Source: Deroplatys truncata
Lineage: Eukaryota > Arthropoda > Insecta > Mantodea > Mantidae
Length of the DNA stretch: 64,000 nt
Assembly (NCBI GenBank): GCA_030765065.1
Contig: CM060977.1
Location: 157,800,052 to 157,864,051 of the forward strand
Direction of reading: 5' to 3'
The position numbers and the translations under genes were made by a program. The notes under the pieces were generated by a model, which saw only the letters and a program-made list of their open reading frames with translations, was not told where the DNA came from and did no database searches. Of this stretch, positions 629-64,000 are shown piece after piece. Positions within the stretch are counted from its first letter, which is position 1, and each line of letters opens with the position of its first letter.

Positions 629-1905
629 TTACTTTCTCTACTACGTATAGTAAGTAGGGGAAGTATTGCGTTCCACCCAAAAATTCGATACCGAGATTTC
701 ACCGTAAATACATGTTTTGAGACCTCCTGAATCCAAAAAAAGTATTTTTGGATACATGTCCGTGTCTGTGAACAGCATAACTCAGAAACGAACAGTCGGA
801 TAAACACCAAACTTGGTATTTAAGTTCCGCATCTTCCAGAGATGCAACATGAAGGTTTTCAAGAAAATTCCCCCACCCCATATTACCCTTTACATGTAAC
901 ATTTTTCGAAAATTTTTCTTTTCTCAAAAACGGCTCTAACGATTTTGATTAAAGTATCATATGTTTAAGATATCTTTGTGGCAAATAAAATGTATATCTT
1001 GAATTTTCTGGGAATGTCTCCAAAAGTATTCTTCAGTGAACGACTTTTGCATAACTGGTAAACCATAAGAGATAGACAAAATTTTACTACACAAAAAACG
1101 TAGATCGCGTTATTTTTTTGTTGTTTTTTTTTGTTTTTTTGTTTTGAGTGAACCATTTTCGAGATATTGCTTGTTATTCCCTTAAATTTTCCAATACTTC
1201 AATCTTTTTGTCAAATGGGAATTCGTTATTCAGTTTTTTGTCATGGATATGCAAAGAATCTGTGGCAAGGAGAATGGTGCTGCACATAGAAACCAGCTAT
1301 TAAGAGATATCTCTATGCTTAAAGGCTAATGTATTTCTATATTGCCCTTGCAAATACAAAACAAGGGGAACATAGTACGCCTTAAGCGATAGTCAAATAT
1401 TTTTAGAACTGGTCGCTATGTGTAAAATGTAATTCTCTTTGCATGTCAAGGACATTCTCAATTGAGAAAAAGTGCAAAAATTGGAAAATTCAAAGAAATA
1501 ACAAGGAATATCGTGAAAATGGTTCATTTTACAAAAAATGAATGTTTATGACCTATATTGTGTGTTTTAACGAGAAATACATTTTTATGTAGTAAAATTT
1601 TGTCTATCTCTCACGGTTCACCAGTTATGCAAAATAGTTCAGAATGAAGAGGACTTTTTGGGACATCCCCAGAAAATTCAAGATGTACATTTTATTTGCC
1701 ATAAAATGTCTTAAACATATGATACTTTAATCAAAATCGTTAGAGCCGTTTTTGAGAAAATAATTTTTTTCGAAAAAATTTCCATGTAAGGGGTGGGTTG
1801 GGTGGGGGATTTTTTTAAAAACTTTTATGTCGCATCCCTGGAACATTTTGAACCTAAATACCAAGTTTGGTGTTTATCCACTTTTCGTTTTTGAGTTATG
1901 CTGTT

Positions 1906-1936
<31 letters not shown>

Positions 1937-2177
1937 ACACAAGACATACACACGGACATGTTTATTTTTTTATATCCTGGACATGCAAAGAGAATGGAAT
2001 ACTCCACATAGCAACCAGCTCTTAAAATATTTGACTATCGCTTAAAGCCTAGCAATTCCCCTTGCATCTACAAGAAAATTAGCAATAAGATTAACATCTC
2101 GATTAACATGAAGCATTTGGAGAATAAGTGTTTGTAAAAATAGTTTGTACAAGTCATGGGAGTGTAACACATCAGAT
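629..2177. mobile_element. HINE-like repeat, fold-back composite (copy 1)
   Basis: This is not a simple copy. Bases 629 to about 1355 read in minus orientation, starting with the terminal ACTTTCTCTACTACG end. About 1355-1965 is a plus-orientation body segment, including a (CA)n tract at 1906-1932. About 1966-2177 returns to minus orientation and ends with the hairpin end (GTGTAACACATCAGA). The body segment is therefore present in both orientations, giving roughly 500-600-bp inverted arms. The right-hand minus part lacks the GTAGAGAAAG arm seen in other copies. Subfamily A type. Not coding; the short open frames here are chance. Confidence 0.8.
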
Positions 2178-2439
2178 TTTTCTTTCTAGAGCATATATTT
2201 AGGCGCATGTTTAAATTTTACGACTGCATCGATGTCAATTTACACCAGACAAATGTCCTTAGTTCTGTATCATCTGCTGAAAAGTGGCGAAGGCTATGTG
2301 TGCCACGTTTTATTGCCACTGATTTCATAGGAGTTTGTCGTGAAGTATCCGCTTCCATATTACTCGTCACTCGTCATCGTCTCTTAATGCTCCCCATATA
2401 TGGCCTCTTTCCACCAAGCGATGACTGGATCCATTTCTG

Positions 2440-4447: not shown

Positions 4448-4920
4448 CTATTATTGCCATTTGCTTCAAATTGTGTGTTTTTATCAACAGCATAATTTAA
4501 ATGCAAAGCAATAGTATATGCTAGTTATGGGAGGGTCCCAAAGATTATAGAACACTCTGTGTACAATAATCTTGAAGAATGAGAAATTGGGGATAATTTG
4601 TTTATGACATCTGAAGAAAAGTTACAACTTGAAAGCGCATTCTGGAGCACGAGAATCAGCTGTCACAAATTCAAGGAATACCCTTATACAAGTTTCTTTG
4701 ATGAACTTGCTAGGACTTCCTATTAATGGAGTCTAATTTTCTAATTAAGTTCATTTGTTTGATGTATTGATAATTGGGTATGCTGACGAGCTTCCTTGTA
4801 TTGTAGACTAGTGACCTTCATGGAACTCGAGTTTAGTTATATGGCGCTATGGCCACTTGGACCTTTGCTTGTTAGGTAACTCAGAGAAAATCAATAGCAA
4901 GTGTGCTGTATGTACGCTTT

Positions 4921-5595
4921 TTACTTTCCCTATTACGTATACTAAGTAGGAGTGGTATTATATTCCGTCCAAAAATTCGATATCGAGATTTCACAGGAAA
5001 TACATGATTTGAGGTTCCCTGAATCAAAACATAAATTAGAAAAAGTCCATGGATCTGTGTTGTGTGTCTGTGAACAGCATAACTCAAAAACGAAAAGTCG
5101 GATCAACACCAAACTTGATATTTAAATTCAGTACCTTCCAAAGATGTAACACGAAGATTTTCAAGAAAATCCTCCACCCCAGACTGCTTTTCATTAAACA
5201 TTTTTCGAAAACTTTGATTTTTTAAAAAATAGCTGTAACGATTTTTATTAAAATACCATATATTAAACATATTTATAGGACAAATAAAATGTATATCTTG
5301 AACTTTCTGGGAATAGCCTGTGAAGAACTTCATTTGAAAGAAATTTTGTATCATCTTGTATAACTGGTAAACGTTAAACGACAAATGAAAACGTAATTCA
5401 CTAAACATGTAGATCTCTTTAAAAACACAATTTATTTCAAATAAGTTTTTTGTGGTATAAGCCGTTTCTGTGATATCGTTATTAAAGTTTGAATTGTTAA
5501 TTTCTTGGTCGTTCTCTTTAAAGTCCTTTTAACATTCAGTTGTTAATAAAAATAGAGGGTAGAGAAAGACATGTGAATGTATCACATTAGATTTT
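4921..5595 (-). mobile_element. HINE-like repeat copy 2 (A/B chimera)
   Basis: The terminal end at 4921 is the A type (CTACTTAGTATACGTA on the opposite strand). The hairpin end at 5550-5595 is the B type (GGGTAGAGAAAGACATGTGAATG). At 675 bases it is shorter than most copies, with a deletion near 5500. The (CA)n site is reduced to GTGTTGTGTGTCTG. Bases 5596-6020 hold nothing recognised; the 81- and 112-codon open frames there lack family features. Confidence 0.8.
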
Positions 5596-6023
5596 TGTTT
5601 AATTGTCTCTTTGTTATGTTGGGGAAGACATTGAATATGTCAGAAATCTTGAGATGGGCAGTGCCTTTCCGTTCAGTAGATACTCAAATAGTGGATATCT
5701 GTATCGTTGGGTACTGACATGTGAATGTGGTACTCTTTTAAGTGTTACTAAATCCGCTATGGTTTTGCAGACAGATATTACACGTGTACCGTTTGCAATG
5801 ATAAAAGTGTTGTCTTCTGCCTTAAGGGGAGATAGGCAACTGAAATAAGCAAAAATGTAGCCTTTTACTAAAACACACAATTCTCTTAAGCTATTGCAGA
5901 TAAGGTCAGAAAATTTTATATGTATGTGTGCTAATGTTTTCTTCATACACAATATAAATTCTGTACATATCTGATAAGCGTCTTTTATAAATCATCTGTT
6001 TCTATCGCGAGATTGTGCATTTT

Positions 6024-6880
6024 TACTTTCTCTACTACGTATAGTAAGTAGGGGAAATATTGCATTCCACCCAAAAATTCGATACCGAGATTTCACCGGA
6101 AATATATGTTTTGAGGCCCCCTGAATCCCCCCCAAAAAGAATTTTCGTAAACATGTCCTGTGTGTGTCTGTCTGTGTGTTTGTGAACAGCATAACTCAGA
6201 AACGAACAGTCGGATAAGCACCAAACTTGGTATTTAGGTTCAGTATCTTCCAGAGATGCAACACGAAGGTTTTCGAAAATCCCCTCACCCCAGATTACCC
6301 TTCACATGGAACATTTTTCGAAAATTTTAATTTTCTCAAAAATGGCTCTAACGATTTTGATTAAAATATCATATGTTTAAGATACTTTCATGACAAATAA
6401 GATATATATCTCGCATTTTCTGGGAATGTCTCCAAAAGTGTTCTTCATTGTGAACGACTTTTGCATAACTGGTAAACCATAAGAGATAGACAAAATGATA
6501 CTACACAAAAAATGTAAATCGCATTAAAATACATAATTTATGTCATATACATTTTTTTTTGTTGAGTGAACCATTTTCGAGATATTGCTTGTTATTCCCT
6601 TAAATTTTCCAATACTTATACTTTTTCTCAAATGGGAATTCGTTATTCATTTTTTTTGTCTTGGTAATGCAAAGAGAATGGAATGCTCCACATAGCAACC
6701 AGCTCTTAAAATATTTGACTCGCTTAAAGCCTACCAATTCCCCTTACCTCTACAAGAAAATTAGCAATAAGATTAACATCTCGATATCTCGATTAATAAG
6801 AAGCATGTGGAGAATAGGCGTTTGTAAAAATAGTTTGTTCAAGAGTAGAGAAAGTCATGTGAGTGTAACACATCAGATTT
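6024..6880 (-). mobile_element. HINE-like repeat copy 3 (subfamily A)
   Basis: Full length, with the terminal ACTTTCTCTACTACG at 6024 and the hairpin end (GTCATGTGAGTGTAACACATC) at 6853-6880. The microsatellite site holds GTGTGTGTCTGTCTGTGTG. Bases 6881-7768 hold nothing recognised beyond homopolymer A/T runs around 7290-7330. Confidence 0.9.
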
Positions 6881-7768
6881 TTTAAAATGGAACTCCATGT
6901 ATCCTTTTTCATGATCTATAAATATACAGCTTTGAAATTTAGTACAGACACTCTCAGCATCATTTTCTTTAATTTGAATAGAATTAGTCAAAAAGCTTCA
7001 TTACAGCTTTCACAAAACATTACTTTTTTACTAATAATATTCATTAATGTCCATATTATTCAAGATACACAGATGATTGTATTTTCAAATAAGCAGGCAT
7101 TATTTTTACATATTCCTCCTAAGTCTCACCATGATTGGCCCACTACTTTCAGAGAAAAGGATACATAAAGCAAAGAAAATGTAGTTTTCAGAAGTGGAGG
7201 CATGAAAGGGCTCACTACCCTATAAAACAGTTATCCGGGGCGTAAATAATGTCGCAACCATGTAAACCCATAAATCATTCTGTTCAACAAAAAAAGCTTT
7301 TTTTTCAAAAAAAAATTGATTTTTTTAAACTTTCTTTGACTCTCTTCCCTTAAAAACGTAATCAATTTTAAAGATGCTGTTTTCCAAAACAGCATTAGTT
7401 TTGGAAAGCAATAAGGGTATACGTAATGTCCCACTCTCATATTTTAAAACCATGTGTAATATAAATACATTTTCTATGGGTCCACTAAATCTACACACAT
7501 GATTTTTATAGAAGTGATATGGGCAATTTGTGTTCATGCTGACACTATCAGTTTGTTTTTAGGTATTTATTTAACGAGATATAAACGTTCTTATTTAGTT
7601 CAATTTTGTCCTAATTTATCAAAAATTGTTACTTAATGCCAGTCTTTAATCCTAATAAAAGCTAGAAATAATAGCATCAGCATTTTCAAAATATATAACA
7701 TAAATAAACATTTCTATGTTTCTATGTTAACTTGAACCAGAGAAAATGTTCCTTAAGTGGGGAAATAA

Positions 7769-8594
7769 TCTGATGTGTTATAATCACATGACTTTCTCTA
7801 CTCTTATACAAACTATTTTTACAAACGCTTATTCTCCATATGCTTCATGTTAATCGAGATGTTAATTTTATTGCTAATTTTCTTGTAGATGCAAGGGGAA
7901 TTGGTAGGCTTTAAGCGATAGTCAAATATTTTAAGAGCTGGTTGCTATGTGGAGCATTCCATTCTCTTTGCATTACCAGGACAAAAAAAATGAATAACGA
8001 ATTCCCATTTGAGAAAAAGTATAAGTATTGGAATATTTAAGGGAATAACAAGCAATATCTCGAAAATGGTTCACTCAACAAAAAAAATGCATATGACATA
8101 AATTGTGTATTTTAACGCGATCTACATTTTTTGTGTAGTAAAATTTTGTCTATCTCTTATGGTTTACCAGTTATGCAAAAACACAATGAAGAATACTTTT
8201 GGAGACATTACCAGAAAATTCAAGATATACATTTCATTTGTCATGAAAATATCTTTAATCAATATCGTTACAGCCATTTTTGAGAAAATTAAAATTTTCG
8301 AAAAATGTTCCATGTAAAGGGTAATCTGGGTTGGGGGGATTTTCTTGAAAACCTTCGTGTCGCAACTCTGGAAAATACTGAACATAAATACCAAGTTTGT
8401 TGTTTATCCGACTGTTCGTTTCTGACTTATGCTGTTCACAGACACACAGACACACACATGGACATGTTTCCAAAAATTCTTTTTTTGGATTCAGGGGGTC
8501 TCAAAACATATATTTCCGGCGAAATCTCGGTATCGAATTTGTGGGTGGAATACAATACTTCCCCTACTTACTATACGTAGTACAGAAAGTAAAA
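7769..8594 (+). mobile_element. HINE-like repeat copy 4 (subfamily A)
   Basis: Full length. It starts CTGATGTGTTATAATCACATG and ends ACGTAGTACAGAAAGT. A substitution (TAC for TAG) affects the right 11-mer. A 91-codon open frame (8305-8580) occupies the right third. Bases 8595-9652 hold nothing recognised. Confidence 0.9.
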
Positions 8595-9653
8595 AGGTAA
8601 ATTTCCAGAAATTGGTCTTCAAAGCTCTGCATCTCGGTGCATCCTTGCTTCTCCATAACAGTTGAATCACGACAGTTTGAAGCAGAAAAATCATGTGCAG
8701 CATTTTATTCAAAAATTAAAAATAATGCATATACAGTTATAATATACTTACTATTGATACGCCATTTTGAAGAGGAGATTTCAAAGCACTAGAAAATATA
8801 GTTTTCTAAAAATGCCTTGTGTTTTTTTGGGGGGATTAATAACAATAAAGCGACAGTTGTGTGTGTAAGTCATTCGAGTCTATGTAAATTGAGTACGAAC
8901 CAATCTGCTCTATTCTAATTTAATTTACTTTGATTTTTACTTTCCGTTCCTCTGCATGACTTCAGAAATTAAAACCATGTTCTCTGGGTCGATCATCTTT
9001 TATAAGGATGCTATTCAAGCGTATACTCATACTTAGAACGCTGAAAGTATGTTTAATTGCGACGCCAAAAGCATAACCTAAAAATTTATAATTACAACGG
9101 TAATTACTGAAAATAATTAACATGCAAATAAGTAATTGATATTTTTTTTGCTTTAATAGTAAGAAGTGTTCAGGAGAAATAAAAAGTCAACCTTGTAGAT
9201 GTAAAAATAAGACAATGCAATGCTTCGATTTTATCTTAGCAGATGTTCAATGTAATCTGTGTTGTCACTTTCAAACTGAAGTATGCAAAGAGTGGAAGAC
9301 CTTTGCCAGTTAATCAGGAGACTCGAGTCATAGCTTTGGAGTATTGTTAGATGTGGGTCGATAGAATGATTTTATTCTTTACGAAAAGTGGAAAGGGAAG
9401 GACGTTTAAATTGTTTGTGTGTGAAAACTGGTAAAGTGGGAGTAAATATGCAAAAGAAACTTTAAGAGTTCGTCTAAATTTATCAAATGTGCTGATAAAT
9501 GAGTTAATACTAATTCCAAATGAATACGTGTGCTGTGATCATTTTTATTTTCTAGGACACCAGTTGGCAAATCTTCAATGGTGTATCCTGTCCTCCAGAA
9601 CTAATTAAACCGGCTAAGTTACTCAAATTGTACAGGTTTTGCCGTAATAAAAA

Positions 9654-10493
9654 TCTGATGTGTTACACTGACATGACTTTCTCTACTCTTGTACAAACTA
9701 TTTTTACAAACGCTTATTCTCCATATGCTTAATGTTAATTAAGATGTTAATCTTATTGCTAATTTTCTTGTAGATGCAACGGGAATATGGTAGGTTTTAA
9801 GCGACAGTCAAATATTTTAGGAGCTGGTTGCTATGCGGCGCATTCCATTCTCTCTGTATGTCCAGGACATAAAAAAAAAATGAACAACGAATTCCCATTT
9901 GAGAAAAAGTATTGGAAAATTTAAGGGAATAACAAGCAATATCTCGAAAATGGTTCACTCAACAAAAAAATGTAGATGGCATAAATTGTGAATTCTAACA
10001 CGATCTATATGTTTTGTGTAGTAAAATTTTGTCTATTTCTTATGGTTTACCAGTTATGTAAAAGTCGTTCACAATGAAGAATACTTTTGGAGAAATTTCC
10101 AGAAAATTCGAGATATACATTTCATTTGTCATAAAAATATCTTAAACATATGATATTTTAATCAAAATCGTTAGAGCCATTTTTGAGAAAATTAAAATTT
10201 TCCAAAAATGTTCCATATAAAGGGTACTCTGGGGTGGGGGGATTTTCTTGAAAACCTTTGTGTCGCATCTCTGGAAGATACTGAACCTAAATACCAAGTT
10301 TGGTGTTTATCCGACTGTTCGTTTCTGAGTTATGCTGTTCAGACACACACACACACACGGACATGTTTCCAAAAATGCCTTTTTTTGATTCAGGGGGTCT
10401 CAAAACATATATTTCCGGTGAAATCTCGGTATCGAATTTTTGGGTGGAATACAATACTTCCCCTACTTACTATATGTAGTAGAGAAAGTAAAA
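9654..10493 (+). mobile_element. HINE-like repeat copy 5 (subfamily A, reference copy)
   Basis: A well-preserved copy, useful as the reference. In order: left hairpin GATGTG/CACATG analogue at 9657-9677 (this copy has GACATG), left 11-mer ACTTTCTCTAC at about 9678, body, (CA)n at 10341-10358, right hairpin CTACT/GTAGTAG region at about 10464-10483, and right 11-mer GTAGAGAAAGT ending at 10489. Then come A-rich bases. No long coding region covers the element. Bases 10494-11046 hold nothing recognised. Confidence 0.92.
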
Positions 10494-13040: not shown

Positions 13041-13455
13041 TGTCCTATGAGCGGCTAATTTGCAAATTCCTTCATTCCACTCACACGGTAGTACAGTTTC
13101 TGTATCGGGGGTCTGTCTCAGCTTCTCAGACCAACCGAATTCAGAGAATCCAAAAAAGAATATTTCTGCCTGGCTAATAGAACACCTGGTGCATTGGCAA
13201 CATCGACCTGGCTGCCGATCTAGGACTTCCAGAGTTTCTCCCAATCCTACGCACAACTACAATAAGTAGCACAGGTTTTGTATCCAACGTCATTATCCAC
13301 TACTCCGTCTTTTTACATCCCTCTTACCCCCTACCACGAACACTCAAAAGATGTTTGCACAGTGACCTCCTCTTGAATAAACTAAAATATGTGCACCCAA
13401 CCTTGGACATATACATATTCCATGGATTTTGTAATAAAGTTTATACATGAAAGAA

Positions 13456-14151
13456 ATCTGATGTGATCCATTCACATGACTTTCTCTACCATCTATCCCT
13501 TATTAGTGGGTATACAAACTATTCTTACTAAGCTTGTTTTTCTATCTGCTACGTTTTAATCCAAATAAACCTTTGCATAAATAGCTACATTACACATTTC
13601 GTTATAAATACATAGGACAGTGATATTCAAATGTTAAGGAACTGGACGCTATATGCTGGTCTTAAAATTCCATACTGCAGTCGTGAAACGTTTAGCAGTT
13701 ATACAAGATTATACAAAATTCCTTCCGAATGAAGAGGACTTTATAGGCTGTTCCCAGAAAATTAAAAATATACGTTTTATTTGTCATGTAAATATCTTTA
13801 GTATATAGAGTTTAATCAAAATTGTTTTTAGAAAATCAAAATTTTCGAAAAATGTTTTCTTTAATGGGTAGTTCGGGGTGGTGGGATTTTCTTGAAAATC
13901 TTCGTGTCTTCCATTTTTGGAAGATACTGAACTTAAATATCAAGCTTGGTGTTGATCCGACTATTCGTTTTTGAGTTCCGCATTTCACAGACACACACAC
14001 ACATACATGAAACCTTTTTCTAAAAATGCTTTTTTTGGATTCAGAGGGCCTCAAAACATGTGTTTTCAGTGAAATCTCGGTATCGAATTTTTGGATGAAA
14101 TGCAATATTTTCTCTACCTACTATATACATACACGGCAGAGAAAGTAAAAA
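13456..14151 (+). mobile_element. HINE-like repeat copy 6 (subfamily B)
   Basis: It starts CTGATGTGATCCATTCACATG and carries the B-type left region (CTTATTAGTGGGTATACAAAC). It is shortened to about 0.7 kb by a deletion near 13680. The right hairpin is weakened (CTACC against GGCAG). Bases 14152-14496 hold nothing recognised. Confidence 0.88.
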
Positions 14152-14496
14152 TACAATCTTCAAAAATGCATTTCATAGGCGAAATTCAACCGTCGCTTGG
14201 AGTGTATAACATGTTTGGGAACTGCATATCCTTACAATGTTACAGATTATATAGTAACTCCAGTCACTTAACCAAAATGTAAACAATTATGTGAGTATAC
14301 AGTGTCCTTAAATGTTGTAATTTTCACTAATGTGCTTGAAATGAGAATCGAAATATGTTGAAACAACAGAACAAGCTTTTGAAGGTTGTTCGGTGTTTCT
14401 TTTGCCTAAATGGATAATACGACACTTCACTTTCCTTTATAGTCACTCGTTCGCATACCTAAATCAGAATTTGACCTGTATTGGATATAGGTTATA

Positions 14497-15743: not shown

Positions 15744-15751
15744 TAGGTTAC

Positions 15752-20200: not shown

Positions 20201-20217
20201 CAAACAAAAGAAAAAAA

Positions 20218-21004
20218 ACTGATGTGTTACACTCACATGACCTTCTCTACTCTTCTACAAATTATTTTTACAAACGCTTATTCTCCATATGATTCATGTG
20301 AATCGAGATATCGATATGTTAATCTTATTGCTAATTTTCTTGTACATGCAAGGGGAATTGGTAGGTTTTAAGGGATAGTCAAATATTTTACGAGCTGGTT
20401 GCTATGTGCTTTGCATTACCTGGACAAAAAAAATGGATAACGAATTCCCATTTGAGAAAAAGTATAAGTATTGGAAAATTTAAGGGAATAACAAGCAAAA
20501 ATGGTTCACTCAACAAAAAAATGTGTATGACATAAATTGTGTATTTTAACGCGATCTACATTTGTTGTGTAATAACATTTTGTCTCTCTCTTATGGCTTA
20601 CCAATTATGCAAAAGTCGTTCACGATGAAGAAGAATTTTGGAGACATTCCCAGAAAATTCGAGATATACATTTTATTTGTCATGAAAGTATCTTAAATAT
20701 ATGATATTCTAATCAAAATCGTTAGAGCCATTTTTGAGAAAATTAAAATGTTCTAAAAATGTTCAATGTAAAGGGTATTCTGGGGTAGGGGGATTTTCTT
20801 GAAAACCTTCGTGTCGCATCTCTGGAAGATACTGAACCTAAATACCAAGTTTGGTGTTTATCCGACTGTTCGTTTCTGAGTTATGCTGTTCCCAGACACA
20901 CACACACACACACACACACACGGACGTGTTTACAAAAATGCTTTTTTTAGATTCAGGGGATCTCAAAACATATATTTCCGGTGAAATCTCGCATCGAATT
21001 TTTG
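20218..21004 (+). mobile_element. HINE-like repeat copy 7 (subfamily A, right end missing)
   Basis: The left hairpin starts at 20218. (CA)n lies at 20896-20922. The homology stops at about 21004, just before the GTGGAATACAATACTT block, so the right hairpin and 11-mer are lost. Bases 21005-21461 hold nothing recognised. Confidence 0.85.
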
Positions 21005-21461
21005 AGTATGATAGTATACCCAAAACTAATATCGAAAGGAAAAATAATAAGGGAGGTCAAGAACTAGATGGGAGTCGGTAACAAGCACAGATGTCTACGA
21101 TAAATAATCTTAGTTGATCACAATATTACCCGAGACAAAGTAGCGCACAGGAAAATCTAAGGGCTATATAAGTTTCGTGAGGGAAGTGAACATCATGGTA
21201 AGAACTCATTTATTCTTACATATTGAGGAGTTAATTGTTAGTTCTGTTGGAGGGAAGGCTTTAAAACAAGACGTGCGACGATTGGAAAGCTGAATTACGT
21301 AAAAGAAATTAGTTTTTCAAAGCTTATAATCCTATGAGAGCCAAATATATCAGCTTAGTGCTGTATATTGATTAGTTCTCTAGGAGACTGATACAGCAGC
21401 AGCATTTTAAGTTGTTTCCTATTTTAAGGATGAAAAGTCAGTACAAGACATTTTGAAAAAG

Positions 21462-22314
21462 CTGATGTGATACATTCACATGAGTTTCTCTATCCTCTAT
21501 CTTTATTAGTGGGCATACAAACTATTCTTACTAAAGCTTATATTTCTATCTACTACAATTTATTCCAAATAAACCTTTGCAAAAATAGCCACATTACACA
21601 TTTCGTTATAGATACAAAGAGAACAGCGATAGACAAGTTAGAAATTGAACGCTATATGCTGGCCTTAAAATTCCACATGTTTCCATGCAATTGCAAGAAA
21701 CAACCGAAAATCAAAGGGACTTACGGAAGTATTGAACAATTCGAACTTTTAACAACGCATATCTCAGAAACGCCTTATGCCACGAAAAACTTATTTTAAG
21801 TAAATTGTGTATTTTATAGAGATCTACATTTTTGGTTTGGTACATTTTCGTCTATCACTTAACGTTTACCATGTATACAAGATTATACAAAATTCCTTCC
21901 GAATGAAGAGGACTTTATAAGCTACTTCCATAAAATTCAAGATATGCATTTTATTTGTAATGTAAATATGTTTAATATGTGGTATTTTAATTAAAAAATT
22001 TACAGCAATTTTTTAGAAAATTAAAATTATCGAAAAATGTTCCATGTAATGGGTAGTTGGGGATGAGGGAATTTTCTTGAAAATCTTCGTGTCGCATCCT
22101 TGGAAGATACTGAACTCAAATACCAAGTTTGGTATTTATCGGACCTTCTGTTTTTGGGTTATACTGCTCACAGACACAAACATGTTTCAAAATTGCTTTA
22201 TTTGGATTCAGCGAGTCTCAAGACCCGTATTTCAGGTGAAATCTCGGTATCAAATTTGTTGGTGGAATACAGTACTTGATCTGCCTACTATGTACTTGGT
22301 AGAGAAAGTAAAAA
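21462..22314 (+). mobile_element. HINE-like repeat copy 8 (subfamily B)
   Basis: Full length. It starts CTGATGTGATACATTCACATG and ends with right hairpin CTGCC...GGTAG, then AGAGAAAGTAAAAATA. The (CA)n tract is almost absent (CACAGACACAAACATG). Bases 22315-22794 hold nothing recognised. Confidence 0.9.
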
Positions 22315-25346: not shown

Positions 25347-25351
25347 GGCTC

Positions 25352-26114
25352 TCGATTAATATGAAGTAGATGGAGAATAAGCATTTGTAAAAATAGTTTG
25401 TACAAGAGTAGACAAAGTGGTCTAAGTGTAATTCTTTTTCTTGTACGTGCAAAGGGAATATGTAGGCTTTAAGCGATAGTCAAATCTTTAAAGAGGTGGT
25501 TGCAATATGTAGCATCTCATTCTCTTTGCATGTACAGAACATTAAAACAATCAATCAAATAGCAAGAAATATCTCGGAAGGGTTCATTCGACAAAAACAA
25601 ATGTATATGATATAAATTGTGTATTTTAACGAGAACTACATTCTTTGTGGTAAACGTTTGTCTATCTCTTACGGTTTACTTATGCAAAAGTCATTTTGAA
25701 TGAAGAGGGCTTTTGGGTACATTCCCAGAAAATTCATCATATATTTCATTTGCCATGAACATACCTTAAATTTATGATATCTTAATCCAAATCATTAGAG
25801 CCATTTTTGAGAAAATCAAAATGTTCGAATAATTTTCCATGTAAAGAATAGTCTGGGGTGAGGGGATTTTCTTGAAAATGCTTATGTCGCATCTTTGAAA
25901 GATACTGAACCTAAATACCAATTTTGGTAATTATTCGACTTTCCTTTTTGAGTTATGGTACTCACAGAAACGCACAGGAACCTTTCTTTTTAAAAAAATT
26001 GTTTTTGGATCCAGGGCATCTCAAAACGTGTATTTCTGGTGAAATCTCGATATCGAATGTTTGGGTGGAATGCAATACTTCCCCTACTTACTATACGTAG
26101 TAAGGAAAGTAAAA
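25352..26114 (+). mobile_element. HINE-like repeat copy 9 (rearranged left end)
   Basis: The first roughly 80 bases (25352-25430) are the left-end region in inverse orientation (AGTTTGTACAAGAGTAGACA). The rest, from about 25435, is a plus-orientation body ending CTATACGTAGTAAGGAAAGT. The (CA)n site is reduced to CACAGAAACGCACAGG. The left hairpin is lost. Bases 26115-26660 hold nothing recognised. Confidence 0.8.
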
Positions 26115-34281: not shown

Positions 34282-35071
34282 TAAGTATGTATGCAATAGC
34301 TTACTTGGTACATTTGGTGGATTGGGAAGAGTAATTTTGATGTTTATGACTATGTATCTCGTTATTAAGTTTCCCAACCTTGCTCAGTTTGTCTTTCGTT
34401 TTGTCTTTTGTTTTATGTTGTCAGTATGTTGTGTCGCGATGGCTAGGAATTTGACTAAAGATCAAAGCATCTGGAGTGTTGTTAAAGGTAGGCATTTGCA
34501 AGAAGATCCCGTACTGTTGATGAAATGATTAGTTTATAAGACGGGCGTGTCAAGAAATTGATACAAATAAAAAACTGTGTATAAAAGTGTGCTTGAGTGC
34601 GACATGCAGACTACAAGACTGTAAATGCCGAAGGCCAACAATTTGAACATTTAAGCGGTAGTAGTCTTCTATGTTAGTGTCTCGTCATAACATTGTACTA
34701 CACTGAAATTAAAGTAGATTTGTATAACCTATCATTACTGTACGCCTACTTAATATCTTCACCTACGAAGCAGCTAATCGAGTCAGGACAAGAAGACAGA
34801 GGGAAGTAGAACAGGGAGAGAGGTACGACAGAGCTACCACCATCTCCCATTAGGTATGTTCCAACCTTAGGTTAAGAATATGCTCCAGAAGAAAAGGAGA
34901 GCGAGGGCGATAAATGAAGAATAAAATGAGTAAGATTTGCTGTTAATATGACACTACTTGCACCTACGAGGTCTATATAAGTAAAAAAATGCACAATTTT
35001 AGAAACTTGTATCTACCATACGAGGTGAAAAAGAGTAGCAATGACATAGACTTCAATAGAAAAAAAATATA

Positions 35072-35924
35072 TCTGATGTGTTACATTCACATGACCTTCT
35101 CTATCCTCTATCACTTATTATTGAGTAAACAAACTATTCTTACTAAAGCTTATTTTTCTGTCTACTATATTTTAATCCAAATAAACTTTTGCAGAAAGAG
35201 CTACAATACACATTTCGCTAAGAGAATAACGTAAATGCCGTAAATCTACGACACGGAACCACCGGCTTTACTTTCCTTCCGAAGGAAGCCATGTTAAGGA
35301 TTTTTACGCTCGAAATGAGTGACCAAGTAATGAATAATTCGAACAATTAATAACACATCTCTCAGAAATGGCTGCTGCAACAAAAAGTTATTTTAAATAA
35401 ATTGTGTGCTTTAAAGAGATCTACATTTCTTGTACAGTACGTTCTCTTCTATCGCTTAACGATTACTAGTTACACAAGGTTATACAAAATTCCTTTCGAA
35501 TGAAAAGGACTTTAAAGTCTATTCCCAGAAAATTCAAGATACACATTTTATTTTCCATATAAACATCATTAATATATGATATTTTAATCAAAATCGTTAG
35601 AGGCGTTTTTAGAAAATCAAAATTTTCGAAAAATGTTCCATGTAAAGGGTAGTTTGAGGCTGTTGGTTTTTTTTTAAACCTTTGTATCACATCTTCAAAA
35701 CGTATTGAACCTAAATACCAGGTTTGGTGCTTATCTGACTTTGTTTTTGAGTTATGCTGTTCATAGCCGCACACACGCGCACGCGCGTGGACCTTTTTCT
35801 AAAAATGCTTTCTTAGGGTTCAAGTGTCTCAAAACGTGTATTTACGGTGAAATCTGGGTGTCAAATTTTTGGGTGGAACGCAACACCTTCTCTACCTACT
35901 AGGTATGTAGTAGAGACAGTAACA
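35072..35924 (+). mobile_element. HINE-like repeat copy 10 (subfamily B, patched)
   Basis: It begins CTGATGTGTTACATTCACATG and ends GTAGTAGAGACAGT. (CA)n is replaced by CACACACGCGCACGCGCGTG. Between 35235 and about 35330 the expected B-type sequence is missing and SINE family-1 body occupies the place. Bases 34282-35071 hold nothing recognised. Confidence 0.85.
35235..35317 (-). repeat. SINE family 1 fragment inside HINE-like copy 10 (c)
   Basis: GCCGTAAATCTACGACACGG and TTCCGAAGGAAGCC identify the body of SINE family 1, without head or tail. Confidence 0.8.
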
Positions 35925-39830: not shown

Positions 39831-39931
39831 GAATGTATACGTGAAATCATTGTAATTACCCAAAGTAATACCACTCAACTTTAAAACGAGAGAACATCAT
39901 TGATGATGAGCAATTGTTGCAAGGGTAAAAA

Positions 39932-40786
39932 TCTGATGTTACAGTCACATGACTTTCTCTACTCTTGTACAAACTATTTTTACAAACGCTTATTCTCCAT
40001 ATGCTTCATGTTAATCGAGATATCGAGATGTTAATCTTATTGCTAATTTTCTTGTAGATGCAAGGGGAATTGCTAGGCTTTAAGCGATAGTCAAATATTT
40101 TAAGAGTTGGTTGCTATGTGAAGTATTCCATTCAGTGTGCATTACCTAGGCAAAAAAATGAATAGCGAATTCCCATTTGAGAAAAAGTATAAGTATCGGA
40201 AAATTTAAGGGAATAACAAGCAATATCTCGAAAATGGTTCACTCAACAACAAAAATGTATATGACATAAATTTTGTATTTTAATGCGATACACTTTTTCT
40301 GTGTAGTAAAATTTTGTCCATCTCTTATGGTTTACCAGTTATGCAAAAGTCGTTCACAATGAAGAATACTTTTGGAGACTATCCCAGAAAATTCGAGCTA
40401 TACAATTCATTTGCCATAAAAATGTCTTAAACTTATGCTATCTTATTCAAAATCGTTAGCCATTTTGAGAAAATTAAAATTTTCGAAAAACGTTCCATGT
40501 AAACGGTAATCTGGGGTGGGGGAATTTTCTTGAAAACCTTCGTGTCGCATCTCTGGAAGATACTGAACCTAAATACCAAGTTTGGAGTTTATCCGACTGT
40601 TCGTTTCTGAGTTATGCTGTTCACAGACACAAACACAGATATACACACACGGACATGTTTCAAAAAATACTTTTTTTGGATTCAGGAGGTCTCAAAACAT
40701 ATATTTCCGGTGAAATCTCGGTATCGAATTTTTGAGTGGAATACAATACTTCCCCTACTTACTATACGTAGTGGAGAAAGTAAAAA
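39932..40786 (+). mobile_element. HINE-like repeat copy 11 (subfamily A)
   Basis: Full length. The left hairpin is shortened (CTGATGTTACAGTCACATG). The right end reads ACGTAGTGGAGAAAGTAAAAA. The microsatellite is interrupted (CACAAACACAGATATACACACAC). Confidence 0.9.
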
Positions 40787-46059: not shown

Positions 46060-46154
46060 CCAAAAAAAAAATAATTCCATCATAGTTGAAACTGCTAGAG
46101 TGCTATCTCGCTTGCGGCTAAATCTTTGTTATACTTTATACATATATAAAACAA

Positions 46155-47005
46155 ATCTGATGTATTTTACACTCACATGACTTTCTCTACTCTTGTACAA
46201 ACTATTTTTACAAACGCTTATTCTCCGTATGCTTCATGTTAATCGAGATATCGAGATGTTAGTCTTATTGCTAATTTTCTTGTAGATGCAAGGGGAATTG
46301 GTAGGCTGTAAGCGATAGTCAAATATATAAAGAGCTGGTTGCTATGTAGAGTATTCCATTTTCTTTGCATTGCCAGGACAAACAAAATGAATAACGAATT
46401 CCCATTTGAGAAAAAGTATAAGTATTGGAAAATTTAAGGGAATAACAAGCAATATTTCGAAAATGGTTCACTCAACAAAAATAATGTATATGACATAAAT
46501 TGTGTATTTTAACACGATTTACCTTTTTTGTGTAGTAAAATTTTGTCTATCTCTTATGGTTTACCAGTTATGCAAAGGTCGTTCACAATGAAGAATACTT
46601 TTGGAGACATTCCCAGAAAATTCGAGATATACATTTTATTAGTCATGAAAGTATCTTAAATATACGATATTTTAATCAAAATCGTTAGAGCCATTTTTAA
46701 AAAAATTAAAATTTTCGAAAAATGTTCCATGTAAAGGGTAATCTGGGGTGGGGAGATTTTCTTGAAAACCTTCGTGTCGCATCTCTGGAGGATACTGAAC
46801 CTAAATACCAAGTTTAGTGTTTATCCGACTGTTCGTTTCTGAGTAATGTTGTTCACAGACACACACACAGACATGTTTCCAAAAATGCTTTTTTTTGGAC
46901 TCAGGAGGCCTCAAAACATGTATTTCCGGTGAAATCTCGGTATCGAATTTTTGGTTGGAATACAATATTTCCCCTACTTACTATACGTAGTAGAGAAAGT
47001 AAAAA
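46155..47005 (+). mobile_element. HINE-like repeat copy 12 (subfamily A)
   Basis: Full length. It starts CTGATGTATTTTACACTCACATG (a few extra bases in the hairpin loop) and ends TAGTAGAGAAAGTAAAAA. Confidence 0.9.
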
Positions 47006-52098: not shown

Positions 52099-53123
52099 CT
52101 ATAATATGGGCAGAGTAACCTATTTCTACCTACTTTCTGTAGTAATTATGCGACAACATACAGGGCTTTGAAATAACATATAATTTTAGAACACCGTTTT
52201 GCAGTCGTAATGTGGTTGGAGATATAGGCAACGTTACTAAATCAAGGTAGGTCAGACTCCTGGTCGTAAACTAAACAGCATACTTGAACTGCGTGGTGGT
52301 GGGACTAGCAGTTGTTTTTCCAAACGACCCTTAATCCAAACAACATGGCGAAAAGGGGTGTAATTTTTCAGCGAAATGGCAAGTACAACTTGGTAGCTAT
52401 GAGCCTACGCTAATAGTATGGAAGTGATGCCTTCATTGTCCAATAAGCGTTTTGCTGTTGCTGACTGAAACGCGCAACATGTTTATGTCAGCTTCACTAG
52501 AAGTTGAGTCAGCATTAGAGTACATCGTACTACGCATTGAACTCAAAGGTTTGGTGATAAAACAACCCGAGGCGTACAGCACAAGGTTTACGAGATCCCA
52601 GCCTTTTCTGATCTTCAGTACCTTGATAAGTTGTTACTGTATGGCCTGCAAGATCGCCAGACCTAAATTCTTTGGACTTTTTCTTCTGGGGGATTATGCA
52701 GTATTTTATTTTTTATTTCGCATTGAAAAGAAAACAGTATTTAGTTTTCAGCCAAAATTTGTTTTTAAAACTTTTTTTAACCATATGTTAATTTCATAAT
52801 TGTCTCTTCTTTTCGCATGTTTGTTAAAACTCATGTCGCATAAAATGAATTTAGTTTAGTTCCCTTTCTCACGTCAGAGATGAGAGGAGGCATTGTTTCC
52901 AGTATAGGTGAACGGCCTGATATGCGACATAGCAATATAGACATTTCTCTCGAGAGATCAAAAATATCTGGAAAGATGCCAGATAACGTTTCGTGGTAAT
53001 AGCCGGAGCTTTCCGAATGTTTGGAATCCGTAAAAGTGGAGATATCAAAGCAGAAAAACTTCAGGCAAGAGTTAGCCGTAAACGCAGTCATTACGCTTGA
53101 CAACGTTGTTTAGTGTAAAAAAA

Positions 53124-53975
53124 TCTTATGTGATACATTCATATAACTTTCTCTGCCCTCTATGTTTATTAGTAGGTATACAAGTTATTCATACTAATGC
53201 TTATTTTTCTATGTACTACATTTGAATCCAAATAAACCTTTGTAAAAATAGCTACATTAAACATTTCGTTATAGATACAAAGAGAACAGAGATAGTCAAA
53301 TGTTTAAGAATTGGACGCTATATGTTGGCCTTAAAGCTCCATACTGTTTCCATGCAATCGCGATAAACTGAATGTTGAGAATGACAAATTAATGAACAAT
53401 TCGAACCATTAATGACGGATATCTCAGAAATGGCTTATGCTACAAAAAAACTTATTTGAAAAAAAATTTGTGTTTTAAATAGATCTACAGTTCTTGTCTA
53501 TTACGTTTTCGTCTATCGCTTAACGTTTACTAGTTATACAAGATTACAAAATTCCTTCCGAATGAAGACTTCATAGGCTATTTCCAAAAAATTCAAGATA
53601 TACATTTTACTTCCATGTAAATATCTTTTAATATGTGATATTTTAATCAAAATCGTTAGTCATTTTGTTATCAAATCAAAATTTTTGAAAAATGTTCCAT
53701 GTAAAGGTAGTTGGGTGGGGGATTTTCTTGAAAATCTTTGAATCGCATCCTTGGAAGGTATTGAACTTAAATAATAAGTTTGATATTCATCCGACTTTTC
53801 GTTTTCGAGTTATGTTGTTCACAGACACACCAACACACATGGACATGTTTCCAAAAATAATTTATTTGGATTCAGACGGCCGCAAAACATCTATCTCCGG
53901 TGAAATCTCGGTATCAAATTGTTGGGTGGAATGCAATACCTTCTCTACCTATGTGCGTGGTAGAGAAACTAAAAA
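53124..53975 (+). mobile_element. HINE-like repeat copy 13 (subfamily B)
   Basis: The left end is degraded (CTTATGTGATACATTCATAT). The right hairpin is the clear B form CTACC...GGTAG, followed by AGAAACTAAAAAGG. (CA)n is short. Confidence 0.88.
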
Positions 53976-54672
53976 GGTTAACCTAAGACTGGTTTAATTA
54001 TTTGTCACAATATTTATTCTTCATATACTTCACTACTAGTCTTCTTTATTAGTCCATATAAATATTAGCATTGAAATACCTTAAAGTAGCATTTTATACA
54101 CTCCTCGAATAAAAATTCAGTTGTAAAATGCTGATCATTATTGGTGAAAGCGATAATATCGCCATGGTTTAGGGTATTTTGCTACTTTATTGTTTCGTGA
54201 TTGAACTGAGCACACCTACTGAATCCAATGCCAACTGTGTGACTGAACATTCGTGGAGACGCCAGAGAGAAAAAAAATACACATGCTCTCTGTCTCTGTT
54301 ACCTATTATGGCTACTGTACGAGGCAAAATGAAGAGATACTTCTTTGGTTTGATCAAAGCACGAAACGGCCCAACTGTTTGATTGTGTGGGCATATAAGA
54401 GAACAAAGCTTTGTAACAGAAATAGTTATGGAGCAAAAACTAGAACTGTAGCATCTTACAGTGGACTGTTTTACGATGCCTAGACGTCAGCACCGTTATC
54501 CTGCGAGCGTGCAAGGAATTGACAATGTAACCTGCGAGGAACGCCTATATTAGTTTTCCCGCTCTTCTGAAAGCGGTGTAAGTTATTACGTGCTTTCTCC
54601 CAGTAGAAATAAATATATCAAGTTTCAGATTACACATTTCAATGTCGCAGTCTTTTATTCCACCCTTCTTTT
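53976..54672. other. unassigned 0.7-kb interval
   Basis: No repeat family or gene recognised. Short overlapping open frames (67 and 76 codons) in two frames at 54179-54483 have no known motif. Confidence 0.4.
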
Positions 54673-55505
54673 TTACTTCCTCTACTACGTATAGTAAGTA
54701 GGGGAAGTATTGTATTCCACCCAAAAATTCGATACCGAGATTTCACCGGAAATATGTTTTTGACGCCCCCTGTCACCACAAAAGCCATTTTTGGAAACAT
54801 GCCCGTGTGTGTGTCTGTCTGTTAACAGCATAACTCAGGAACGAACAGTCGGATAAACACCAAACTTGGTATTTACGTTCAGTATCTTCAAGAGATGCGA
54901 TACGAAGGTTTTAAAGAAAATTCTCCCACCCCAGATTACCCTTTACATGGAACATTTTTCGAAAATTTTAATTTTCTCAAAAATGGCTAACGATTTTGAT
55001 TAAAATATTATATATTTAAGATATTTTCATGACAAATGAAAAGTATATCTCGAATTTTCTGGGAAGTCTCCAAAAGTATTCTTCATTGTGAACGACTTTT
55101 GCATAACTGGTAAACCATAAGAGATAGACAAAATTTTACTACACAATATATGTAGATCGCGTTAAAAACACAATTTATGTCATACACATTTTTTTGTTGA
55201 GTGAACCATTTTCGAGATATTGCTTGTTATTCCCTTAAATTTTCCAATACTTATACTTTTTCTCAAATGGGAATTCGTTATTCATTTTTTTTTTGTCCTG
55301 GTAATGCAAAGAGAATGGAATACTCTACATATTCTACATACTACATACTACTTAAAATATTTGACTATCGCTTAAAGCCAACCATATTCCCGTTGCACCT
55401 ACAAGAAAATAAGCAATAAGATTAACATGAAGCATATGGAGAATAAGCGTTTGTAAAAATAGTTTGTACAAGAGTAGAGAAAGTCATGTGAGTAACACAT
55501 CAGAT
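54673..55505 (-). mobile_element. HINE-like repeat copy 14 (subfamily A)
   Basis: Full length: ACTTCCTCTACTACG at the terminal end (one change in the 11-mer) and GTCATGTGAGTAACACATCAG at the hairpin end. A local duplication of TACATACTACAT occurs near 55335. Confidence 0.9.
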
Positions 55506-56921
55506 GTTTTTCCACAAATTTATATTTAGCTTTTTAATATTTAAGTGATGCATAAATTCTTAACCTACAATCATTATCTAAGATTGTTTTTCTAAAAATA
55601 CCGGTTTCCTTAAAGTAGAACTACCTGTTTTATATGAAAAACGTTTATGTACCTTTAAGTTTAAGATGATCGTCTATATGAGAACTCGTAAAATAAGTAT
55701 TAAGTGAATTAGGGTACAGTTAAAGCTCCAAAAATCTAAGGAAATATTTCTAATAGAAATGCACATTACCTATAACACGAAACTCTGCTTGGCACTTTGC
55801 TATAGTACGAGGGATGTCTTTAAAATGTAGACTACAAAATAAGAACCACTCAGTATTTTGGTTAATAATTTGTTGTTCCATTCTATATAAGTACATAGGA
55901 GCTCCAGGACTTCATCCGCCACTATTTCTGTAAAAAGGCTCCACAACTGGTCCCGAAGACCAAAGTGCATCCCTCACCACACCTCCCAGCAGGGGTAAAC
56001 TGAATGTTGAAAATTGAACTCGAATCCCTTGGCACCACAGTGATACTGTAATTATTGACAAGAAGATATAAATAATTAAATAAAGAAATGATAATAAGAT
56101 GAAGTAATTGCAATAAATAATTTCGGTACACTAAATAATTGTATATTATAACAAGCCTGAGTTGATAAGATTTGTCCGAAAAAAAGGTCATGTTAAGGAA
56201 ATACATTAGTATAAAAGTTCCTGGAATGCAGTTGGGTTTGAGTTCAGTACGTTTGTAGCAATACTGTAAATTAGAAAGGGAATGAAATTCTGAGATTCGA
56301 GGAGGTACCGCATAGCAACAGCTTCAGATACGCATACGCAGAGTTTTAACATTCGTCCGCGTATTTAGGAACTTTGGTTGGGTATGTATATGTGGGCGGA
56401 GCTTAAGTTAAGAAAAGTTCGTGCATATTAAACCAGAGATACAATCGTGATGTATTCGTGACTCCCGAGATTCTTGACTCTCGTGTGGTTTACTGTCGTG
56501 TGTATTTTTTAAGTTGTGTTGCGCACATAAACGCACCGGCGTTAGACAAGATTTAGCAGCTACTGAGAGGGATCTTCCCGAGTAACATTTCTGCGGCTTA
56601 CTGCAACTTATAGGAATAATTAATTAGTAAGTTCAACAGTCGACGACTCCTCTCAAATGAAACATTTAGGTCAACATTAAAATTCATCAGGTAACTAAAC
56701 TGGTGCTATCCTTTCAAAATACACTCACGCATACCCTGAGATAAGGAACTCACAGCTATACCACTACAGCAGCTGGCGCACGAGAAAACGCAGAGCGAGC
56801 TACGAGATGATATCATTTATCAACAGAGCAGGTAACGTTAAATGTTATAAAAATCTGAAGCAGGAAGCCGTATCAAAGTATTTGCACTGAGAACGGCTTC
56901 AACAGGCAGCATCGTTTTGTG

Positions 56922-58473: not shown

Positions 58474-58576
58474 TATATAAGCATGCTCAAAGATTCCGGA
58501 AGGATTTCGGTGTTAATGGGTTTCTGTTTTCCTTTTAAGGGGAAAATTTTGCTTTAAGGTAATTTCTTTCTTTCTT

Positions 58577-59480
58577 TTTACTTTCTCTACTACGTAGAGT
58601 AAGTAGGGGAAGTATTCTATTCCACCCAAAAATTCGATACCGAGATTTCACCGGAAATACATGTTTTGAGATCCCCTGAATCCAAAAAAAGCATTTTTGG
58701 AAACATGTCCGTGTGTGTGTCTGTGTGTGTGTCTGTGAACAGCATAACTCAGAAACGAACAGTCGGATAAACACCAAACTTGGTATTTAGGTTCAGTATC
58801 TTCCAGGGATGCGACACAAAGGTTTTCAAGAAAATCCCCCCACCCCAGGATACCCTTTACATGTAAGATTTTTCGAAAATTTTAATTTTCTCAAAAACGG
58901 CTCTAACGTTTTTGATTAAAATATCATATGTTTAAGATATTTTCATGACAAATAAAACGTATATCTTGAATTTTCTGGCAATGTCTCCAAAAGTGTTCTT
59001 CGTTGTGAACGACTTTTGCATAACCGGTAAACCATAAGAGATAGACAAAATTTTACTACACAAAAAATGTAGATCGCGTTAAAATACACAATTTATGTCA
59101 TATACATTTGTGTTGTTGAGTGAACCATTTTCGAGATATTGCTTGTGATTCCCTTAAATGTTTCAATACTTATTTTCTCAAATGGGAATTCGTTATTCAT
59201 TTTTTTGTCTTTGATATGCAAAGAGTATTTATCTGTTGCAAAGGGAATGGTGCTGCACCTAGCAACCAGCTATTAAGAGATATGTATATGCTTAAAGGCT
59301 ACTGTATTTCTATATTGCCCTTGTAAATATATATTCCCCTTACATCTACAAGAAAATTAGCAATAAGATAGAGTCTGCAAATGTTTATCTCGATTAACAT
59401 GAAGTAGATGGAGAATAAGCGTTTGTAAAAATAGTTTGTACAAGAGTAGAGAAAGTCATGTGAGTGTAACACATCAGATT
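58577..59480 (-). mobile_element. HINE-like repeat copy 15 (subfamily A2)
   Basis: Full length. It has an extra 100-odd bases near 59215-59335 (TGGTGCTGCACCTAGCAACC, TTAAAGGCTACTGTATTTC) that also occur in copy 1 at 1255-1350, so a sub-branch of A. Bases 59481-59821 hold nothing recognised. Confidence 0.9.
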
Positions 59481-59821
59481 TTTTCATAAGCGCGATGGGT
59501 TCCCAAAGTGCGAAATTCCGGATTGTGAAACAAAAATTCTTCACTGAAGTCTGTTTTTGGAATATAATATTATGAAGTTAATAATAGACAGCATATGATG
59601 CTTTGTAAAGCTTTGTAAATATTATACCCCTAATCCGTTTAGACACATGTTGAGAACTGTGGTTCTTTTCAATTCTGGATCAAGAGGTTATCAAAGTAGG
59701 TTGATTTCTTAGATTACTCTGGAGAAACAGACTTCCAAAATTAAACAAACCAACAAAGGTATATACAATTGGATTATGGAATGTGTTCCTTGAAGAAGTT
59801 AGTTTGCTGTATCGTTTTTCG

Positions 59822-61622: not shown

Positions 61623-61635
61623 GCAACACAAAAAA

Positions 61636-62470
61636 TCTGATGTGTTACACTCAGATGACTTTCTCTACTCTTGTACAAACTATTTTTACAAACGCTTATT
61701 CTCCATATGCTTCATGTTAATCGATATATCGAGATGTTAATCTTATTGCTAATTTTCTTGTAGATGCAAGGGGAATATGGTAGTATTTAAGCGATAGTCA
61801 AATATTTTAAGAGCTGGTGGCTATGTGGCGCATTCCATTCTCTTTGTATGTCCAGGACATAAAAAAATAACGAATTCCCATTTGAGAAAAAGTATTGGAA
61901 AATTTAAGGGAATAACAAGCAATATCTCGAAAACGGTTCACTCAACAAAAAAAAATGTATATAACATAAATTATGTATTTTAAGCGATCTACAGTTTTGT
62001 GCAGTAAAATTTTGTCTATCTCTTATGGTTTACCAGTTATGCAAAAGTCGTTCACAATGAAGAACACTTTTGGAGACATTCCCAGAAAATTTGAGATATA
62101 CATTTCATTTGTCATGAAAATATCTTAAACATATATTTTAATCAAAATCGTTATAGCCATTTTGAGAAAATTAAAATTTTCGAAAAATGTTCCTTGTAAA
62201 GGATAATCTGGGGTGGGGGGATTTTCTTGAAAATCTTCGTGTCGCATTTCTGGAAGATACTGAACCTAAATACCAAGTTTGGTGTTTATCCCACTGTTCG
62301 TTTGAGTTATGCTGTTCACAGACACACGCACATACGGACTTGTTTCCAAAAATGCTTTTTTTGGATTCAGGGGGCCTCAAAACATGTATTTCCGGTGAAA
62401 TCTCGGTATCGAATTTTTGGGTGGAATACAATACTTTCCCTACTTACTATACGTAGTAGAGAAAGTAAAA
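61636..62470 (+). mobile_element. HINE-like repeat copy 16 (subfamily A)
   Basis: Full length. It starts CTGATGTGTTACACTCAGATG and ends ACGTAGTAGAGAAAGTAAAAA. A (CA)-type run at 62318-62335 is short. Bases 62471-62833 hold nothing recognised. Confidence 0.9.
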
Positions 62471-62833
62471 AATCGAAACCAGCTCGTTTATCCTTACAAA
62501 CGCACCTCCGATCGCTTATTATAGCGATAGCTGTGTAGGTTATTCTCTCCCTCCCGCCACTCTTATCACTGTAACACATCTACTCGTGTGATGTTTTCAA
62601 AGGCGTTAATAAAAGCAGATAGCTGTAGTTAAAACTTAATAATACTCGTGGTATTAATAGCACATGCTCATGCCTGCTGCTTACGCTTAATACGCTTCCC
62701 ATGCTTTTTTGCTTATGTTGTTCATGACAGCTAGAATTACTGCTTTAATCAACTGGTTTATAGACTCAAATTGCACCAATGAAACAAAACGTGTCAGAAT
62801 AGTCAAGTTTATTGCTGTTGTTAAGCAACATGT

Positions 62834-63697: not shown

Positions 63698-64000
63698 TTT
63701 TTCAGTTTATGCCACATAACCTCACTCATGGGAAAGTAATTAAGGTGTCAAATAGCTTATTATTTAAATATATTATATACAAGTATCATTAATAGGCTCG
63801 GTAATTTTTTGAGTACATGCACATATAAAACCAAAAACGTTAAATGCTATTTTGGGTGAATTTTCTAGAAGTTACAGCAAAATCTCAATGCTTGTAGTGA
63901 TCCGTGACGTAAATGCATGTTGAAGTCTTCCTGATACATAAAAATTCCTGCCACTACTCTTATTTCTTCGTATTTTCTCAGTCATCCATATTGTTTATCG

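Follow-up and report, generated by a model that had tools for sequence, protein, structure and literature searches.

The window, meaning the whole 64,000-bp stretch of Deroplatys truncata DNA that was analysed, contains 17 loci of one interspersed repeat family, which together cover 14,743 bp, or 23% of its length. The loci come from an nhmmer search with a profile built from 15 copies, in which 22 segments were grouped into 17 loci; a blastn search with the copy at 9654–10493 also reveals the family. The first-pass annotation of this DNA had counted seventeen copies built on one plan, and both the number and the shared plan hold, so that the family is real. Its coordinates for the reference copy were right, and become 9649–10493 when the terminal A-run is included. 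Both ends are kept in order in 15 of the 17 loci, and 11 of the 17 lie on the plus strand when read in the orientation of that annotation.

Copies carry the 11-mer ACTTTCTCTAC as a subterminal inverted repeat (subTIR). With up to one mismatch allowed, the 11-mer occurs 34 times in the window, compared with 1.31 expected (sd 1.06), and none of 100 shuffles reached 34. Inside the 17 loci lie 33 of these matches, and individual copies often have one mismatch in the subTIR. The remaining match (60908–60918, one mismatch) stands alone outside any copy, a number no greater than chance.

In DINE-1 and Helentrons, the 5′ subTIR is terminal or nearly so and the 3′ subTIR is internal, according to the descriptions of element ends in two reports (PMC4067079, PMC2374699). 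By this convention, the 5′ end of the element is therefore the right end of the first-pass annotation, and the reading direction is reversed. From the 5′ end, the order is a T-run, the ACTTTCTCTAC subTIR, a conserved block of ~390 bp with a (GT)n microsatellite, a variable centre, the 3′ subTIR GTAGAGAAAGT, a short 3′ hairpin and a second T-run (Table 1). Subfamily A has a consensus of 859 bp, with the subTIRs at 5–15 and 822–832. Positions 5–15 and a partner ending 27 bp from the 3′ end are common to both the A and the B consensus, which bears out the earlier description of asymmetric 11-mers, one adjoining the terminal T-run and the other set back behind a hairpin. The microsatellite had been described as a central (CA)n; in the 859-bp A consensus its start is near position 136, 16% in from the 5′ end, which is off-centre.

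Table 1. Copies of the family, features of the reference copy and open reading frames within copies. Strand is the Helentron 5′ to 3′ orientation, opposite to that of the first-pass annotation.
Feature	Position	Strand	Basis or remark
Reference copy, subfamily A	9649..10493	-	blastn, alignment, profile search
5′ terminal T-run (AAAA on +)	10490..10493	-	reference copy
5′ subTIR ACTTTCTCTAC	10479..10489	-	11-mer search, consensus
5′ inverted repeat/hairpin, one arm within subTIR	10457..10488	-	folding, pairing analysis
5′ conserved block	10101..10489	-	82-97% A/B consensus identity per 40-column window
Microsatellite (GT)n, (AC)8 on +	10343..10358	-	reference copy
Variable centre	9690..10100	-	A/B consensus identity 31-82% in 40-column windows, gaps scored as differences
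3′ subTIR GTAGAGAAAGT (= ACTTTCTCTAC on +)	9676..9686	-	11-mer search, consensus
3′ hairpin ATGTG/CACAT, one mismatch in reference copy	9658..9674	-	sequence, folding
3′ terminal T-run (AAAAA on +)	9649..9653	-	reference copy
Copy, subfamily A	6021..6882	+	alignment, profile search
Copy, subfamily A	7764..8594	-	alignment, profile search
Copy, subfamily A, Helentron 5′ end lost	20213..21052	-	alignment, profile search
Copy, subfamily A	39926..40785	-	alignment, profile search
Copy, subfamily A	46147..47004	-	alignment, profile search
Copy, subfamily A	54671..55509	+	alignment, profile search
Copy, subfamily A, variant centre common to 629-2184	58576..59483	+	alignment, profile search
Copy, subfamily A	61631..62473	-	alignment, profile search
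Copy, subfamily B centre, A-like 5′ end, internal deletion	4919..5599	+	alignment, profile search
Copy, subfamily B, internal deletion	13454..14150	-	alignment, profile search
Copy, subfamily B	21456..22313	-	alignment, profile search
Copy, subfamily B	35071..35922	-	alignment, profile search
Copy, subfamily B	53120..53974	-	alignment, profile search
Copy, subfamily B centre, A-like 5′ end	62830..63702	+	alignment, profile search
Composite copy	629..2184	+	5′ part 629-1356, inverted internal piece 1347-1963, 3′ tail 1965-2178
Copy without subfamily assignment, 3′ end piece 25349-25432 inverted against body	25349..26114	-	profile search
ORF wholly or mostly in copies	5103-5528		Pfam: none
ORF wholly or mostly in copies	10196-10534		Pfam: none
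ORF wholly or mostly in copies	21434-21799		Pfam: none
ORF wholly or mostly in copies	35466-35798		Pfam: none
ORF wholly or mostly in copies	62200-62538		Pfam: none

An alignment of 15 copies, from which 629–2184 and 25349–26114 were excluded, was sorted by eye into two subfamilies. The nine copies of subfamily A differ from their consensus by 2.8–7.2%, and the six of subfamily B by 9–18%. Between the two consensus sequences the end blocks are common and the centre is different: per 40-column window, identity is 82–97% over the 5′ block, 92% at the 3′ end and 31–82% in the centre with gaps counted as differences, in a table that ends ~20 columns short of the 5′ end. The split is not clean, since two copies assigned to B, at 4919 and 62830, have A-like 5′ ends; in these two (4919–5599 and 62830–63702) end blocks may have been exchanged between subfamilies. 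The two excluded loci are rearranged. In the composite copy, the inverted piece spans the region from the centre to the microsatellite, the 3′ tail is back in the first orientation, and one joint falls in a T-run. In the other, the inverted 3′ end adjoins a Tc1 copy that is without its last ~80 bp.

The 5′ subTIR is one arm of a hairpin with up to 11 outer pairs. Across 16 copies (14 distinct rows), 93.9% of cells are paired over 11 pairs, compared with 51–68% when the arm is slid by 1–3 columns. At one pair both partners change (3 cells), and another two pairs are seen as U-G, U-A and C-G. Shuffles reached the observed pairing in 18 of 500 cases, the number of cells changed on both sides in 21 of 500 and the covariation score in 5 of 500; two further measures, the count of doubly changed pairs (370/500) and the number of pair types (230/500), are unremarkable. 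Given the relatedness of the copies and a structure drawn from their own consensus, the pairing data support a 5′ hairpin nested in the subTIR and fall short of proving it. Folded as a single DNA strand, the 5′ end gave z = −1.79 for the A consensus and z = −5.91 for the B copy at 53120. A right-hand hairpin at the end with the terminal 11-mer had been annotated before; it is there, and folding and pairing indicate that it includes the 11-mer itself.

The 3′ hairpin, located between the 3′ subTIR and the 3′ end, has a stem of 5 bp in A and 6 bp in B. It folds weakly, with z = −0.75 for the A consensus (41 of 200 shuffles as good) and z = −2.08 for the B consensus. No covariation was found for it among 16 related copies: 85.5% of cells pair, a level that 500 of 500 shuffles match, and in not one of the 12 pairs do both partners change. 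The left hairpin of the first-pass annotation is in the right place, as a short and weakly folding stem that carries a mismatch in the very copy quoted. The predicted fold further encloses the 3′ stem in a pairing between AAAGT of the 3′ subTIR and the terminal T-run. A separate DINE-1-like lineage, its two subTIRs each forming a hairpin arm and each end folding as a unit together with its subTIR, is conceivable but improbable. The 5′ half of this idea has some comparative support, and the 3′ half comes from predicted folds only. In such a lineage, if it existed, the structure that the subTIR forms would help to define the two cut sites.

The borders were examined in 15 copies, leaving out those at 20213 and 25355. 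TT precedes the 5′ subTIR in all 15 and TTTT in 13 of them, compared with a background of 0.0156 (1.6%) for TTTT. At the 3′ border, CAG (TAG or AAG in two copies) is followed by A or C and then by a T-run of 1–7, with TTTT within 8 bases in 11 of the 15 copies. T-runs are present on both sides, where A/T-rich flanks had been noted earlier, and their Ts may belong to the target or to the element.

A short A-run at the right end of the first-pass annotation might also suggest a SINE-like retroposon with this run as its tail. The run is 2–6 long and nearly fixed in length, a second A-run stands at the other end, neither a tRNA (bacterial-code scan) nor an Rfam match was found in the window, and no target duplication was detected, all of which leaves a retroposon barely credible.

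Target duplications were sought as words of 3–10 bp, at all small offsets, common to the left and right flanks of a copy, with flanks taken from other copies as control. The first-pass annotation had named such a duplication as evidence against its reading, and none was detected in the 15 copies: the best excess was 1.47, with 272 of 300 permutations as good or better and a 95% null value of 2.87. As a control for power, artificial duplications were inserted into 3 of the 15 copies at a single fixed offset, and out of 10 trials each the test recovered those of 4 bp in 9, of 6 bp in 10 and of 8 bp in 10; the test is weaker for offsets that vary between copies, and a 2-bp TT duplication is indistinguishable from the T-run. 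For DINE-1, Yang and Barbash point to the same ambiguity between a TT duplication and T-rich ends (PMC2374699).

No empty site was found within the 64-kb window when the joined flanks of 18 segments (the 17 loci and the inner piece of 629–2184) were compared with it (rows at E < 0.05). One flank resembles another place at several loci (among them 39926, 46147, 58576, 61631 and the Tc1 beside 25355), and none of the 17 matches across the junction. The inner piece of 629–2184 does match across its junction, solely because uninterrupted copies of the family exist. At 61631, three flank matches break off 9, 13 and 19 bp short of the junction without picking up again beyond it, and so reveal nothing about the target.

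The copies have no recognisable coding content. The longest stop-to-stop frame is 95 aa in the A consensus and 58 aa in the B consensus, and the five ORFs of at least 110 aa that lie wholly or mostly in copies (up to 141 aa) match no Pfam family. All 32 ORFs of at least 110 aa in the window were scanned against Pfam with E up to 0.01 or 0.05. None of the 32 matched a Helitron Rep, a PIF1 helicase or an endonuclease of the Helentron kind, in agreement with the absence of a helicase gene noted earlier. Ten of the 32 match domains of Tc1/mariner-type transposases or helix-turn-helix domains, in some cases with scores that fall short of the Pfam cut-off. Nothing in the window was recognised as a host gene.

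These findings bear on a second reading, in which the family is a cut-and-paste MITE with subterminal inverted repeats that a DDE transposase moves, duplicating TT (2 bp) at the target. Such an element would be compatible with the 11-mers inverted between the two ends, the lack of recognisable coding content and the high copy number, as well as with the DDE (Tc1/mariner) remnants close by and the published remark that a TT duplication is hidden by T-rich ends (PMC2374699). The repeats are, however, asymmetric rather than symmetric TIRs, and no duplication of 3–10 bp was detected. A DDE partner sharing the ends of the family, the other observation named beforehand as contrary to a Helentron, was not seen in the window: the Tc1 ends that were compared are unrelated to those of the family, and none of the 34 matches to the 11-mer falls inside a transposase-bearing stretch. 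We regard a MITE as improbable.

Other repeats share the window with the family. Tc1/mariner-type transposase remnants lie at 11548–11883, 14495–15745, 24100–25350, 31516–32580, 33712–34059, 41470–42705 and 57299–57838; those at 14495, 24100 and 41470 are copies of one element with ~90% identity. A second repeat of ~0.85 kb is present in three copies that are 69–81% identical (16974–17866, 44318–45122 and 59817–60693). An interspersed repeat of ~0.2 kb, possibly a SINE, occurs at five places (16222–16446, 19028–19218, 42788–43025, 50277–50534 and 51826–52099).

Hairpins close to the ends are also expected of a canonical (Helitron1-type) non-autonomous Helitron, which would run in the direction of the first-pass annotation with its body starting at A|TC. 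At that annotation's left end, 14 of 15 copies indeed have ATC, which on the opposite strand is the GAT that follows the 3′ hairpin. Canonical Helitrons are, however, characterized in the passages on their termini by TC and CTRR ends and by the lack of inverted repeats (PMC4344730, PMC3630058). In the Helentron direction, the sequence starts with AC after the T-run, and neither consensus has CTRR in its last 40 bp; in the opposite direction, CTRR is lacking in A, and B has one CTAG that is internal and not terminal. A canonical Helitron is accordingly very improbable.

The structural features of the family closely follow those of DINE-1/INE-1 of Drosophila as Yang and Barbash describe them (PMC2374699). 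In both, the 5′ subTIR is terminal or nearly so, and an inverted repeat is partly complementary to it. A block A with a microsatellite, a variable centre and a conserved 3′ block B with a stem-loop, a weak one in the family, recur in the same order, as do the insertion preference for TT and the lack of a significant ORF. DINE-1 differs from the family in the sequence of its subTIR, which is 13 bp rather than 11 bp long, in its GTCY instead of (GT)n microsatellite, and in a 3′ stem of 7–11 instead of 5–6 bp. An approximate DINE-1 stretch did not align with the consensus above shuffles (269/500 and 242/500 as high). A body module in common with a lepidopteran repeat, likewise compared as an approximate stretch, was dropped as a candidate: the values were 4/500 for A and 43/500 for B, and the alignment fell at an unexpected place.

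Similar parallels extend to other insects and to mites. HINE-Mo and HINE-Cq share with the family asymmetric subTIRs, a 3′ palindrome and, in some copies, microsatellites, according to the structural descriptions of Thomas et al. 2014 (PMC4067079). Their target is given there as T-rich, with a variable number of Ts and no target modification, comparable to the T-rich borders and undetected duplication of the family. The subTIRs of HINE-Mo are themselves palindromic, whereas in the family the subTIR is a hairpin arm; the 3′ stem of HINE-Mo is 5–10 bp, compared with 5 (A) and 6 (B), and the 3′ subTIR of the mite families described in the same report lies 38–60 bp from the end, compared with 27 bp (PMC4067079).

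Helitron2_Cv of Calliphora vicina, as its published description has it (PMC3630058), resembles the family in its 11-bp subTIRs, in a 5′ subTIR with which an inverted repeat is partly associated, and in having both a microsatellite and a 3′ hairpin, the latter weak in the family. Its 750-bp consensus is represented by 41 copies in about 600 kb, so that it too is present in many copies; it differs in its GTCY microsatellite, its 9-bp 3′ stem and its share of the region, 3% versus 23% of the window (PMC3630058). Lepidopteran Hel-2 (Coates 2015, PMC4344730) likewise has a microsatellite downstream of a 5′ subterminal inverted repeat and a 3′ stem-loop; the 5′-TC and 3′-CTAG termini with A/T flanks reported for it are canonical Helitron ends, which are absent in the family. 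The differences between the family and the published DINE-1 and HINE elements, in microsatellite, distance at the 3′ end and 3′ stem, are of degree.

We conclude, with a probability of roughly 0.88, that the family is a non-autonomous Helentron (HINE, DINE-1-type) of ~0.86 kb with no recognisable gene. The reading rests on the asymmetric 11-bp subTIRs, the nested 5′ inverted repeat and the microsatellite in the 5′ block; on T-runs at both ends, no detectable target duplication, no recognisable coding and no CTRR end; and on end blocks that are conserved between subfamilies around a divergent centre, as in DINE-1. Most of the structural features that could be tested thus fit the Helentron-like (HINE) assignment proposed in the first-pass annotation. 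Counted against it are the lack of an empty site and of an autonomous partner in the window, the short and weak 3′ stem, the distance of 27 bp at the 3′ end, (GT)n in place of GTCY, and a 5′ hairpin with z of only −1.79 in A and two of five shuffle measures unremarkable.

By analogy with the mechanism set out for Helentrons (PMC4067079), from which the enzyme, nick sites and strand transfer are carried over, mobilization of the family may proceed as follows. A Rep/helicase(-endonuclease) protein, encoded by an autonomous Helentron elsewhere in the genome, would recognise the 5′ subTIR or hairpin and nick at the T/A border. One strand would then be peeled off by rolling-circle replication, with the 3′ subTIR and hairpin serving as the presumed terminator. 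The single strand would finally be joined between two Ts of a T-rich target, a step predicted to leave no duplication.

Searches for relatives were made in collections of viruses, plasmids, bacteria and archaea, where a negative outcome says little. The exact family pattern and the degenerate core and end patterns all gave 0 matches in viral_contigs and genome_contigs, and blastn against phages and plasmids gave no match to the family. The 5′-end pattern run on the window itself gave 5 matches and added nothing. Literature matches to words of the end and core sequences were unrelated by title, and in a broad literature search on hemipteran and polyneopteran insects the term 'Helentron' was absent among the matches listed.

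The family looks new in comparison with the published elements considered here, as distinct from a curated repeat library, and its kind, DINE-1/HINE, is already known. No question that is new in principle arises from it. The DINE-1 plan is densely represented here, its pair of conserved end blocks, 5′-block microsatellite and variable centre recurring over nearly a quarter of the window. Repeat annotation can make use of the family, and its ends should serve well as probes with which to find this genome's presumed autonomous Helentron.
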